This document shows, piece after piece, positions 52,329 through 60,988 of a stretch of 64,000 bases of DNA. The notes under the pieces are model-generated. The model searched no databases, had not been told where the DNA came from, and was given only the letters and a program-made list of their open reading frames with translations. Each line of letters opens with the position of its first letter. Position 1 is the first letter of the stretch. This DNA comes from Microcaldota archaeon. GTDB taxonomy: Archaea; Micrarchaeota; Micrarchaeia; Micrarchaeales; Micrarchaeaceae. The position numbers and the translations under genes are program-made. The stretch covers positions 284,505-348,504 of the forward strand of contig JAJZAB010000001.1 of NCBI GenBank assembly GCA_021799635.1. The letters run 5' to 3'.

Positions 52329-52411
52329 ATTACGAAATATTACGACGGCATTCCCAAAAGTTAAAAAACAAAAACCGAAACAAAACCGAAATACAACAAA
52401 TCATATAAAAA
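52329..52411 (+). promoter_or_regulatory. Operator-like direct repeats and TATA of surface gene
   Basis: ATTACGA occurs at 52329-52335 and 52339-52345 (10-base spacing). An 11-base unit (AAAACCGAAAC/T) is repeated in tandem at 52371-52392. TATA element CATATAAAAACC is at 52402-52413, about 30 bases before ATG 52441. Tandem repeats just upstream of a TATA box are a typical place for a regulator to bind. Confidence 0.4.
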
Positions 52412-52440: not shown

Positions 52441-53946
52441 ATGAGCAGCACGGTAAAATATGCCGCGGCAGCAGTTGTCATAGTAATAATTGCGGCTTTG
52501 ATTGTCATAAGTTATACTGGTGTAAAGTCCGTCAAATCAGCCAGCGGTGTTGGGACCACATCTCTGGCCTTTCAGCTCACCGATCCGCCGTTCGTTCCTC
52601 TCGGAACCCAGGCACTGGTGGTGGATTACTCCTCAATAAAGGTGCATGAAATCGGCTCAAACGGCACAGCGACATGGGTTAACTCAAGCCAGAGCGGCAG
52701 CGTAGACCTTATGTCTCTTGTAAACCTGACGCAGACAATAGCAGAGCTTCAGGTGAGCACCAATTCGGTAATAAACCAGGCAGAATTCAACATAACATCA
52801 GCGAGCATAACAGTGAACGGCACAACATATCCTGTATCAGTTCCAGAGCCGCTGATAACTGCAAACGTGACTGGAAGCACATCTATAAACTCCACAGCTA
52901 CTCCAAGCATAATAGTAGACATGTCACCAACCGTTCTGTCAATTTACACATCAAACTCCACTCTGTTCGTAATGGTCCCATCTGTAAGGGCTGTGATAGT
53001 GCCAGGTATAAACCATGGAGTAATTAGGGTCGGCGCTAAAGCAAACCTTACAGCTACGGACAGGGATTATCTCGGAAGGGTCAGGCCAAACATAACTATA
53101 ACAAACGCCCAGCTTTCAGAAAACAACAACTACACCACAATTTCTGTTACAGTCAAGGACAACTCAAACGCGAGCGCTACGCTGCAGAACATGCTGCTTT
53201 TCGGAATACCATCAGTAAGGGTTTTTCCATACGCAAATGCTACGGCTTCATCAAATTCCACGATCGGCGTGCAGCCGCAGGCTCCGGTGATGTCTGTAGG
53301 GGTAAACAGCACCCTCAGCACTTACAACAACCGCGGCTCCGCAAGCAACGGCAGCCAATCCTCTGCAGGCGGATACAACCACCTCTCTGCCGTTATAAAC
53401 GGTGGCGTGGTGAACGTGTCAAGCAACGGCAGCCTGGAGACATCAACGCGCGTAGAGCAGTCCGCCAGCTCGGAAGCTGAGATAAACCAGGGGCTGTTCA
53501 TAGAAAGATTCCGCGTCCTGAATTTCAGAATACTGTCAAACGGCACCCTCGCCCTGCCATTTGAGGGCGGAATAGGCCGCAGCGACAGGTGCATAAATCC
53601 GGTAGCGGCAACATCAGCAAATGCCTCTGTTGGTGGGGGCGCCGCTTCAGCAAACTCCAGCACGTATGTAAACATTTCAATATACTGCCTGCCCTACAAC
53701 CAAAGCGGATACACCCTGCAGCCAGGCCAGTCAGTTACGCTCACGTTTAATGGAATAATAAGCTTCGGGGGGGAGTGCTCTTATCCTATAAGGCCAGTGC
53801 CGCTGGAGGCAAGCCCGCAGCTGGTGCACCTTCCGATAAGTATGTACTGCCCAATAACGGCCGGAGTAGTGCCAGGATCAACATATCGCATTGTTGTGAT
53901 TGGAGAGCGCGGCGCGCACGCAACAGCAAACGTCACCGCGGAATAA
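52441..53946 (+). CDS. Membrane-anchored surface protein, DUF4382-like
   Basis: 501 residues. N-terminal helix (residues 8-26) as anchor or signal, then a glycosylatable beta-rich ectodomain with many N-x-S/T sites. Conserved start FQLTDPPFVPLGTQALVVDY, followed by a VDLMSLVNLTQTIAEL repeat element, match the DUF4382 family. C-terminal half has a Cys-rich YCLPYNQSGYTLQPGQSVTLTFNG module that is also in the next gene. It is 20 bases from the regulator gene with a related ectodomain. Expressed from its own TATA box. Confidence 0.75.
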   Translation: MSSTVKYAAAAVVIVIIAALIVISYTGVKSVKSASGVGTTSLAFQLTDPPFVPLGTQALVVDYSSIKVHEIGSNGTATWVNSSQSGSVDLMSLVNLTQTIAELQVSTNSVINQAEFNITSASITVNGTTYPVSVPEPLITANVTGSTSINSTATPSIIVDMSPTVLSIYTSNSTLFVMVPSVRAVIVPGINHGVIRVGAKANLTATDRDYLGRVRPNITITNAQLSENNNYTTISVTVKDNSNASATLQNMLLFGIPSVRVFPYANATASSNSTIGVQPQAPVMSVGVNSTLSTYNNRGSASNGSQSSAGGYNHLSAVINGGVVNVSSNGSLETSTRVEQSASSEAEINQGLFIERFRVLNFRILSNGTLALPFEGGIGRSDRCINPVAATSANASVGGGAASANSSTYVNISIYCLPYNQSGYTLQPGQSVTLTFNGIISFGGECSYPIRPVPLEASPQLVHLPISMYCPITAGVVPGSTYRIVVIGERGAHATANVTAE

Positions 53947-53966
53947 AGCACTGGAAGTGAGTATTC

Positions 53967-55511
53967 TTGAGCAAAAACTGGGAGACAAAGGAGCTTATAA
54001 TACGGATGCTTGGAGAGAAGCAGATGACCCTGACTGACATATCTGCCAAGCTTGGCCTGGCTCCATCCACGGTAAGCCAGCACATCAAGGAGCTACTGAG
54101 AATGGGTGCAATAAGGGAGACCGCCCAGCAATACAGCAAGAAGTGGAGGTACTACGAGGCAGTGCCAGAATTCAACGTTTCAAAGATAACTAGGAAGATA
54201 GGGGAAAGCATAACGATAAAGACAGGCGGGATTATAACTGCAGTATACATAATATCAATAATCGCGGTAGTCATAGCCATAAACCTTCTACTCCAGCACC
54301 AATATGTTGTGCAGCTCACCGATCCGCCGTTCGTTCCTCTCGGAACCCAGGCGCTTCTTATAAACTACTCAAACGTGGAGCTGCACGTCACCGGCTCATC
54401 TGCCAGCGCGGGTGCGGTGTACACAAACTATTCTGGCACTATAAACCTGATGAACCTGACAAACCTTACCCAGACCATAGCCATAGTTAACAAGCCCGGC
54501 AAGGAGGAATTCAATTCAATAAGCTTCAACATAAGCTCTGCTGAAATAGTGATAGGCAACCAGACGTATCCGGTAAATGTGCCGGAAAGCACCGTTAATG
54601 TGGCCATACGCAGCGAAAAAGGCAACCCAGAAGGCGCGCTGATAGACTTCATGCCAAGCGTGCTGGAAGTATACAGGTCAAACCAGAGCCTGTTCGTACT
54701 GGTGCCCTCGGCCACTGCGGTTCAGATACCGAGGTCCTATCTGGTAAGCGCCAGCCACGTAGGCCTTAGGAGTAAGCTCAACCCCGCAGAGCTGGCCACG
54801 CTGGCGTCAGAGTCCAGCAAGCTTTCAATAACCAACGCCACAATCACGCAGGAAGGCAAATACACGATTATAAGAATCGAGGTGGTGAACAACGGGAATT
54901 CGACTGTAGTTGTGAGGCGTGCAATAGTCTATGGATACCTGCAGAGCGTGAACTCTTCAAACAGCAGCTATGCCATACTACCCCGCGCATCGGGTAGCTC
55001 TTCCAGCCGGCAGGGCATTGAATACTACGGCATACCCAACTATGCCTTCGGATTGGGCCAGGCCGCAGGGGTCAACGCCCAGCTGCCAAACGTTACGCCG
55101 GTCATATCCAAGATAGTGTCGATAGGTATCAACAGCTCCAACGCCGTAGGCCAGATAAAGGGGATAATAAAGGGCAGCCTCAACAGCACAGCCCGCTCTC
55201 CAGCCGAAGACGTCACTCCGGTCCCGGACATCCCATCGCAAAAATGGATCGCTTTTGCGCACAGCTACCACAACACCATGAACTTCCTGGTGGCTTCCAA
55301 CGGCACCCTTCTAGTTCCATACCAGTGGGGGCAGCTCTCAAACTATAGCGGCTACGTGCTGCAGCCAAAGCAGTCGGCTACGCTCACCTTCAACGGAAGC
55401 ATTGCCATCGGCAGCCCGGGCAGCTTCATTTCCGTCATACCAAACGAGACCTACGGCGTAGTTGTCATCGGCAGCCTCGGGGCTTATTCCAGCAAGAACT
55501 ACACATCCTGA
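53967..55511 (+). CDS. Transmembrane regulator: winged helix, membrane helix, DUF4382-like ectodomain
   Basis: 514 residues. N-terminal ArsR-type winged helix (about 8-65: ELIIRMLGEKQMTLTDISAKLG, PSTVSQHIKELLRMGAI), a juxtamembrane linker, one helix (about 85-108), then an ectodomain closely related to that of the previous gene: YVVQLTDPPFVPLGTQALLINYS, INLMNLTNLTQTIAI, and the terminal YVLQPKQSATLTFNG module. One-component sensor design: a surface ligand could change DNA binding on the inside. Start is TTG 53967 with GGAAGTGAG upstream. The next gene starts after 76 bases. Confidence 0.8.
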   Translation: MSKNWETKELIIRMLGEKQMTLTDISAKLGLAPSTVSQHIKELLRMGAIRETAQQYSKKWRYYEAVPEFNVSKITRKIGESITIKTGGIITAVYIISIIAVVIAINLLLQHQYVVQLTDPPFVPLGTQALLINYSNVELHVTGSSASAGAVYTNYSGTINLMNLTNLTQTIAIVNKPGKEEFNSISFNISSAEIVIGNQTYPVNVPESTVNVAIRSEKGNPEGALIDFMPSVLEVYRSNQSLFVLVPSATAVQIPRSYLVSASHVGLRSKLNPAELATLASESSKLSITNATITQEGKYTIIRIEVVNNGNSTVVVRRAIVYGYLQSVNSSNSSYAILPRASGSSSSRQGIEYYGIPNYAFGLGQAAGVNAQLPNVTPVISKIVSIGINSSNAVGQIKGIIKGSLNSTARSPAEDVTPVPDIPSQKWIAFAHSYHNTMNFLVASNGTLLVPYQWGQLSNYSGYVLQPKQSATLTFNGSIAIGSPGSFISVIPNETYGVVVIGSLGAYSSKNYTS

Positions 55512-59212: not shown

Positions 59213-59539
59213 TTAGCTTTTTGATTTTTCTTCAGACATTATCCTTAGTCTTTTTGCTTGTAGTGAGAGCGTATTGTCAAACTTCCTGAATCCTAGATAT
59301 CCTACAATACACTCAGCCACTACCGATGTTTTTATCCCAATACCATTAACTTTCTTCTCCATCTCCCTTTTAATATCATCTACGCTTCCTTCATACACAG
59401 GCGCCAGGAATACTGCGCCATTAGGCGCAGAGGAATACAGCAGGCCACAGCGCGCTACAATGTCACTGCCCAACATCATGTTTTTTTGCGCTTGGGATCC
59501 TTCGACTGTGATCTTATACAAGCATAAACATCCAACCAC
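59213..59539 (-). pseudogene. Truncated copy of the tandem Lrp-type regulator
   Basis: The last about 73 codons (59213-59436) match the C-terminus of the 59630-60988 regulator (PNGAVFLAPVYEGSVDD, KTSVVAECIVGYLGF, EEKSKS end). The first 30 or so codons (MVGCLCLYKITV) have no counterpart there and overlap the copy 2 promoter. Reads as a 3' remnant left by duplication, fused to unrelated sequence. Confidence 0.7.
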
Positions 59540-59629: not shown

Positions 59630-60988
59630 TTAACTTTTTGATTTTTCTTCAGACATTACTCTCAGTATTTTTGTTTGTGGTGAGAGCGTATTGTCAAACT
59701 TCCTGAATCCTAGGTATCCTACAATACACTCAGTCACTACCGATGTTTTTATCCCAATACCATTAACTTTCTTCTCCATCTCCCTTTTAATGTCATCTAC
59801 GCTTCCTTCATACACAGGCGCCAGGAACACTGCGCCATAAGGTGCAGAGGAATCCCCACAAAATATGTACTTGTTGGCCGGCCTGCCAGTCTCTTCTATA
59901 ATATCAATCAGATATGCAGCCCTTGTCTCATTGAACGCGACAATATCTTTCTGTACAGCATAAAGCAAAGCGCAGTACTTAACCTGTGGGTTTTGCATAG
60001 TTATGGTGGCCCTTTCTATAAGCTTTCTTTCCAGCAGTTTATAGTACGTATACTGGGCACTGCCGCTGCTAAGGCCGTTCCTTTTGTCAATGTCTGAGAA
60101 AGGCGCACCGGCATCATTATTAAGGTCCATTAGCACAGCATACTCGCTTCTGAACAGCTGGTCAGGCCTCTTCCGCATGCTTTCCCTTGCCTTCTGCCAC
60201 ACCCTATCCTTAAGAAGGGAAAAGAACTCCATCCTTAAAGGTATATATCCGTAGCCCTCAAGCGTATATCCAACATTCCATATTGCAGGAAAGCCGGCAA
60301 ACACCCGGCTAGACCTGAAGAAGTATACTGTATCTTCCAGCTTCAGCGTAGATTCAGCTATGATATAAATTAGGAGGTCGTAGTCGCCGTACATGACCAA
60401 GGAGAGCTGCACCCGCGGCTCTGCCTCCAGCAGCTTTTTAACCGCCGCCACATCAGGCTTCCCTGCCAAAAATTTCACGGTTATGATGTATCTTGTGAAC
60501 CCAAACCTCTCCGGATACACCTCAATAGTCCTCCTTATCCCATAATTCTTTTCTAGCATTTTCAGCCTGTACGTAACAGTGCTTTTCCCTACCCCGACCG
60601 CGCTAGAAATTTCATTTATCGATGCCCTGGAATCCATGCTTATCTTTGTAAGTATGCCAAGATCTATTTTGTCGGGGTTCTGCATTGTATATGCGTGGCC
60701 TTCAGCACCGGCCTTCTCCCCTGCCCTTATATGTTTGTCAAGGTTCTCGACCTTTGTTGTATCCTTGCGGTGAATCGCAGGGATGAATTCACCCGCATCG
60801 CTTATGCTGCCGATGTAGAATGATACCATCCTACTCTTCTTCATCCCCGGGTCGAACAGGTACTTATATTCGTATACGCAGTACCTGTTCTTTATAATGG
60901 AAATAGTGATGCGGTTTCTGGTGTTTCGCCTGAGCTCCTCCAGTTTGTCCAGTACATCCTTCGGATATTCCTTTATCCTGTTCCGCAT
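59630..60988 (-). CDS. Tandem Lrp/AsnC-type regulator with transposase-like N-terminus
   Basis: 452 residues. Residues 1-100 (NRITISIIKNRYCVYEYKYLFDPGMKKSRM) resemble the N-terminal module found in some archaeal transposases. A winged helix follows (about 108-155: DLGILTKISMDSRASINEISS, VGKSTVTYRLKMLE), then a RAM-like effector domain (to about 270), then a second winged helix (about 300-345: YAVLMDLNNDAG, QYTYYKLLERKLI) and a second effector domain ending KSKS. Two Lrp units in one chain. Faces the peptide gene. AT-rich promoter at 60989-61060. Confidence 0.75.
   Translation of the reverse strand: MRNRIKEYPKDVLDKLEELRRNTRNRITISIIKNRYCVYEYKYLFDPGMKKSRMVSFYIGSISDAGEFIPAIHRKDTTKVENLDKHIRAGEKAGAEGHAYTMQNPDKIDLGILTKISMDSRASINEISSAVGVGKSTVTYRLKMLEKNYGIRRTIEVYPERFGFTRYIITVKFLAGKPDVAAVKKLLEAEPRVQLSLVMYGDYDLLIYIIAESTLKLEDTVYFFRSSRVFAGFPAIWNVGYTLEGYGYIPLRMEFFSLLKDRVWQKARESMRKRPDQLFRSEYAVLMDLNNDAGAPFSDIDKRNGLSSGSAQYTYYKLLERKLIERATITMQNPQVKYCALLYAVQKDIVAFNETRAAYLIDIIEETGRPANKYIFCGDSSAPYGAVFLAPVYEGSVDDIKREMEKKVNGIGIKTSVVTECIVGYLGFRKFDNTLSPQTKILRVMSEEKSKS

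Follow-up and report, generated by a model that had tools for sequence, protein, structure and literature searches.

The window, by which we mean the whole 64,000-nt stretch of Micrarchaeota DNA that was analysed, derives from a genome of 748,639 bp that is 88% complete; among named genomes, bins of Ca. Micrarchaeota are its closest relatives. It contains two genes on the + strand that are separated by 20 bp; all features of these genes and of their promoter described below are on the same strand. The first gene (52441–53946) encodes a DUF4382-like surface protein of 501 aa, which, as judged from its open reading frame, Pfam and hydropathy, has an N-terminal membrane anchor and an all-beta ectodomain. 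Specifically, a hydrophobic helix spans residues 4–25, and residues 39–136 match DUF4382 (PF14321) with 28.6 bits against a cut-off of 25. In Haloferax, the DUF4382 protein HVO_1030 is an exported lipobox protein with AglB-dependent glycosylation according to the available text of PMC8241124, which fits a surface role for a DUF4382 protein.

The second gene (53967–55511) encodes a membrane-tethered transcription regulator of 514 aa, hereafter the sensor, identified by its open reading frame, a domain search and a structure model. Its TTG start is assigned on the agreement of the N-terminus, MSKNWETK, with MSKTWETK of its relatives. The protein comprises a cytoplasmic winged helix-turn-helix (residues 2–66; 53970–54164), a single membrane helix (residues 89–108 by both hydropathy and helix prediction; 54231–54290) and an ectodomain (residues 111–514; 54297–55508). 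The winged helix matches HTH_5, of the MarR/ArsR winged-helix superfamily, with 34.2 bits against a Pfam cut-off of 22 (E-value 2.3e-8), and its fold matches ZitR (VIA-align Z 12.5, 63 residues aligned, 1.1 Å). Membership of the ArsR/SmtB metalloregulators (NCBIfam NF033788) was rejected, with 28.8 bits against a family cut-off of 55, and cysteine is absent from residues 1–66. With the HTH_5 domain and the membrane helix in one protein, the sensor falls within the transmembrane transcription regulators (TTRs), defined in the available text of PMC10269533 as single proteins that carry one or more membrane regions in addition to a DNA-binding domain. The initial annotation had described both reading frames in this way, as an anchored DUF4382-like surface protein and a membrane-spanning one-component regulator with a winged helix and one membrane helix, and the domain, hydropathy and model data agree with it.

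In structure model m109d19ed54b7, the sensor ectodomain is composed of a beta-rich segment (residues 111–329), a low-confidence linker (333–423) and a further beta-rich segment (424–513). The 63-row AlphaFold model of the sensor has a mean pLDDT of 80, with a confident winged helix and ectodomain and a disordered 333–423 segment. The sensor ectodomain, which by itself gets no Pfam match, is homologous to the surface protein (phmmer 5e-46), so the earlier proposal that the two ectodomains are related is correct. The family name DUF4382 applies directly to gene one and to sensor relatives such as L023 (25.8 bits) and L039 (66.2 bits), while PF14321 (cut-off 25 bits) is absent from the best 25 of 27 families at E up to 1 for the sensor ectodomain. 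A second DUF4382 match was not found in the window's genome.

No solved structure is related to the ectodomain by sequence (best E 0.36), and Foldseek returned nothing at an E of 0.001 or better for either the sensor model or the surface protein model. With VIA-align, the membrane-distal part of the sensor (residues 281–514; 54807–55508) resembles the Pyrobaculum type IV pilin 8fk7 (Z 10.4, 95 aligned, 2.9 Å). The best structural matches of the surface protein are an exo-chitosanase domain (Z 8.0, 90 aligned, 2.8 Å) and, next, the Bacteroides adhesion protein 3ufi (Z 7.9, 112 aligned, 3.1 Å), both of which lie within the range of common beta-sandwich matches. Neither Foldseek nor VIA-align named a ligand for either ectodomain model.

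Upstream of the surface gene lies a direct repeat, AAAACCGAAA-C-AAAACCGAAA (52371–52391), in which a 10-bp unit occurs twice with an 11-bp period. It is followed after 12 bp by a TATA-like box, ATATAAAA (52404–52411), and then by the start codon of the surface gene at 52441. As a repeat per se it is marginal, a run as long being present in 66 of 2000 shuffles; the window's AAAACCGAAA repeat recurs, however, in the upstream regions of relatives, the reading of which brought it to light. The initial annotation had pointed to repeats at 52329–52392 as a site for the regulator. The 3′ part, 52371–52391, stands, being strongly conserved before related genes, and the 5′ part (ATTACGA twice) was dropped, as it was not noticed in those upstream regions of relatives that were read.

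To score the site, we used the window's own half-site in two copies with a 10–12-bp period. After the removal of near-copies and short flanks, the upstream sets contained 46 genes for winged-helix membrane proteins (some with other ectodomains), 47 surface genes including that of the window, and 670 controls from unrelated genes of the same loci; the region upstream of the window's sensor was excluded because it lies inside the operon. A score of at least 16/20 was reached by 32 of the 46 winged-helix membrane genes, 3 of the 46 other surface genes and 2 of the 670 controls, and a score of at least 17/20 by 29, 1 and 0, respectively. Shuffled sensor upstream regions scored at least 16 in 3 of 1840 cases. 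Furthermore, 28 of the 31 related promoters have a TATA-like box whose start is 10–15 bp downstream of the repeat. Inverted repeats were considered as operators and set aside, as they were seen in few promoters only.

In a scan of the window's genome with up to 3 mismatches and an 11-bp period, 52371–52391 is the sole match, and a 12-bp-period pattern adds one extra, weaker place. Across 31 genomes, 20 sites with up to 2 mismatches were found versus 13 with a reversed control pattern. This difference in number is weak by itself, and the case depends on where the sites lie: 15 of the 20 adjoin a sensor, surface or MacB gene, with no exception among the 10 that have at most 1 mismatch. With the 12-bp period, a further 18 places were obtained in these 31 genomes, of which nine have no sensor, surface or MacB gene beside them. 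The upstream counts and the genome sites together indicate that the repeat follows the sensor gene, and the AAAACCGAAA direct repeat is probably the operator of the sensor.

The arrangement of the window, with the surface gene first behind the repeat promoter and the sensor gene second, is also that of G042, the sole other tandem surface–sensor operon found among the listed matches, where a repeat (18/20) precedes the surface gene and none precedes the sensor gene. The congener G002 has a single good half-site (16/20). Operator-like repeats with 1–2 mismatches also stand before genes whose products have a hydrophobic N-terminus but lack a winged helix (L167 and L168 in G018, L137 in G001), which are possible further targets. 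In two other loci (L039:5684-7045 and L041:5330-6730), the same winged helix and membrane helix are fused to a canonical DUF4382 domain (66–67 bits), with the same repeat upstream.

The recognition helix and the repeat vary together among relatives. One clade of sensors mostly has the recognition helix APSTVSKH and AAAA[G/A]CGAAA repeats, and most other sensors have APSTVSQH or a close form and AAAACCGAAA repeats; the Q-type window with AAAACCGAAA and the K-type L077 with AAAAGCGAAA exemplify the two site types. We compared operator base 5 with the helix residue in 35 of 47 genes; we dropped ten whose site fell below 16/20 or whose helix was unread, and two in which the bases were mixed. All 13 genes with K have G/A, and of the 22 with Q or E, 20 have C; the other 2 (one near-identical pair) combine Q with G/A. 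L070, which lies outside the K clade, has K and G/A. This association represents two or three changes on the tree and is non-significant once relatedness is respected; with so few independent changes, the link between residue and base is a hint of recognition and not a proof.

These data bear on whether the repeat might instead be the site of another, soluble regulator of envelope genes, with the membrane protein being a target rather than the reader. Repeats before a few genes without a winged helix would fit such a regulator; they precede one surface gene of G010 and MacB operons of the genomes G006 and G025. We nevertheless regard it as rather improbable, given that the repeat tracks the winged-helix gene much more closely than it does the surface gene, is found at a single place in the genome of the window, and has a fifth base that tracks the recognition-helix residue.

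A profile of 15 sensors matches 144 of the 148 genomes of the archaeal order, with sensors and free-standing surface proteins counted together, and its matches in the same class outside the order are weak; the sensor architecture is conserved throughout the order. Forty regions from relatives encode 18 sensors that carry this ectodomain and 17 free surface proteins, as well as 7 winged-helix membrane proteins whose ectodomains are of other types; among three of the latter run against Pfam, L039 and L041 carry canonical DUF4382 and L045 does not. In a set of 65 named loci we counted 28 sensors, all with the hydrophobic helix, and 39 free surface proteins; a single short winged-helix membrane protein was also present. 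In one locus (L063:6001-8189), a 167-aa winged-helix membrane protein is encoded directly before a full sensor gene. Free surface-protein genes of the window family are also present on contigs labelled Marsarchaeota G1 and G2 (L112, L125), by transfer or mis-binning. Within the window itself, a small reading frame (59213–59539) repeats near-exactly the C-terminal part of an adjacent larger winged-helix reading frame (59630–60988), a partial tandem duplication.

The surface and sensor genes are side by side in none of the 65 named loci; both occur in L084 and in L087, at a spacing of about 3.7 kb. Of the matches listed from the 148 genomes, only those of the window and of G042 are adjacent, G042 having them in the same order, 10 bp apart. 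Under the criterion that the initial annotation had proposed, the pairing is thus not a conserved unit, nor is the adjacent partner gene conserved with the regulator as in a co-component system.

MacB sets apart, no conserved neighbours were found for the window's own sensor, and two recurrent neighbour families of four genes each lie beside MacB-linked or related sensors. In the sister clade with K-type sensors, a full set of ATPase, CARDB/NPCBM-associated anchored protein and MacB/FtsX permease is encoded no further than 5 kb from 13 of the 19 sensor genes, and two more sensor genes adjoin an ATPase on a contig that ends soon after; one of the other 29 genes has such a set within this distance. 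The set is 13–96 bp downstream on the same strand, or divergent, with L098 having it 1.3 kb downstream. One locus (L084:791-7467) encodes on one strand, in order, the sensor, an ABC ATPase, a CARDB/NPCBM-associated anchored protein, a MacB permease and a surface protein. MacB was rejected as a target in the window's genome (G000), which has no MacB_PCD match, and MacB operons were rejected as a general regulon, as the repeat is at the ATPase promoter in just 2 of 13 that lack an adjacent sensor.

The initial annotation had suggested that the sensor may sense its neighbour or a shared ligand. In a specific form of the former idea, the sensor ectodomain would be in direct physical contact with the surface protein next door and would report whether that protein is present or damaged. 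The homologous ectodomains, the operon and the shared gene order in G042 are consistent with such contact, as is the surface gene that ends the sensor–MacB row in G020, G145 and L084, but the two genes are not adjacent in most genomes, and we consider direct contact unlikely.

A 41-bp sequence is identical in both genes of the window, the first copy at the first ectodomain strand of the surface gene (52573–52613) and the second just after the membrane helix of the sensor (54312–54352); in nine other sensor/surface gene pairs, exact matches extend over 10–20 bp at most. The locus of G002 that is syntenic with 55.9–59 kb of the window begins with a single gene for a winged helix, a membrane helix and an ectodomain. 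In the HTH tree (48 of 55 sequences after near-copy removal), the G002 winged helix is the closest relative of that of the window sensor (59% identity, support 99/92). The G002 ectodomain, in contrast, is closest to the window surface protein (48.5% identity, versus 32% with the window sensor ectodomain) and forms a clade with it and G006 (98/99). The window sensor ectodomain groups among free surface proteins (96/99, on a long branch), and G011 and G017, with surface genes in that clade, share genes with the left flank of the window. A tree holding the window sensor and G002 ectodomains together is rejected only at p 0.031, with the window row long-branched. A second ectodomain tree omitted six truncated or very long rows (L031, L032, L033, L035, L036 and L038) and the first residues of each ectodomain, which are the shared motif. 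On the family tree, the ectodomain changed between the fused and free states at least six to seven times, three of these changes being forced by well-supported branches.

The discordance between the winged-helix and ectodomain trees implies exchange of ectodomains. The simplest reading would be a recent exchange or conversion between the window's two genes in this lineage, possibly by way of the 41-bp exact repeat at the module junction. A bolder and doubtful extension is that the same winged helix and membrane helix are refitted, by exchange at a short identical junction, with the current ectodomain of the surface layer, keeping the sensor matched at all times to the surface protein under its control. 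If true, the cell would have a self-matching system of surface sensing, which in an episymbiont might serve contact with a host or neighbour.

Such frequent changes between fused and free states, and the several ectodomain types found on the same winged helix and membrane helix, could also mean that the product of gene two is in the main a surface protein whose cytoplasmic foot binds DNA or the nucleoid, making it a tether between membrane and DNA that does not respond to signals. A dedicated predicted operator whose spacing to the TATA-like box is fixed, and the linkage to MacB-type operons in one clade, fit regulation better, and we judge a passive tether to be quite improbable.

Taken together, we favour, with a probability of roughly 0.65, a membrane-tethered one-component regulator that controls the surface-protein operon to which it belongs and is thereby autoregulated. 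The surface and sensor genes would form one operon under one operator, and the N-terminal winged helix of the sensor would bind the direct repeat of AAAACCGAAA, which lies immediately before the promoter. From there, an archaeal regulator could recruit or block basal factors, and control might be by activation or repression. The ectodomain would read the cell surface. Since it is of the same family as the surface protein of the operon, the likeliest signal would be the state or a ligand of the surface layer, through a shared ligand or contact between like ectodomains. The signal would then cross the one membrane helix and set the output of the sensor's own operon.

In BlaR1 with beta-lactamase, and in RsgI with the carbohydrate modules of the cellulosome, the outer domain of the sensor is paralogous to the effector, with which it shares its ligand, and the output is a protease or an anti-sigma factor. 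Unlike BlaR1 and RsgI, the window sensor has its DNA-binding domain in the same chain. ToxR/ToxS exemplifies the co-component systems, with a membrane-tethered regulator and an envelope partner; the window differs from ToxR/ToxS in that its partner protein shares homology with the ectodomain of the sensor itself, and in that the adjacency of the two genes is not conserved. The window pair resembles co-component systems, as presented in the available text of PMC10269533, in having a membrane-tethered regulator with an adjacent envelope partner gene.

Archaeal membrane-bound one-component regulators that have been studied include ArnR and ArnR1 of Sulfolobus acidocaldarius, described in the available text of PMC6396743. 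Like the window sensor, they are archaeal, membrane-bound, one-component and have an N-terminal HTH, and they control cell-surface structures via promoter boxes, a further likeness (PMC6396743). Their layout of an HTH, a putative HAMP and sensing domain and two C-terminal membrane segments is different (PMC6396743), and assignment of the sensor to the ArnR family was rejected for its single membrane helix right after the HTH and its C-terminal ectodomain. A large beta ectodomain and a paralogous surface protein, both of which the window system has, are not in the description of ArnR/ArnR1 that we compared (PMC6396743). The TTR census of Demey et al. 2023 counts 1,384 archaeal cases in 367 of 404 species; TTRs, like the window sensor, combine a DNA-binding domain and a membrane helix in one protein, the single-pass form being the commonest (PMC10269533, available text). 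The earlier statement that such sensors are little known in archaea was therefore too strong. To the TTR plan, the window system adds a predicted operator and a paralogous surface partner. The terms 'duf', 'micrarchaeota' and 'dpann' have no match in the available main text of the census (PMC10269533), and in the open-access literature searched we found no description of a membrane regulator from Micrarchaeota, nor of any regulator whose ectodomain is of the DUF4382 type, of the operator of such a regulator, or of the exchange of its ectodomain with that of a surface protein.

DPANN archaea have few two-component systems, with one in the single Micrarchaeota genome counted in the available text of PMC5847659. 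The sensor family suggests how such two-component-poor archaea may read their surroundings. It also offers a compact case, with a predicted operator, a recognition residue and an ectodomain, that could be tested in vitro without culturing the organism.
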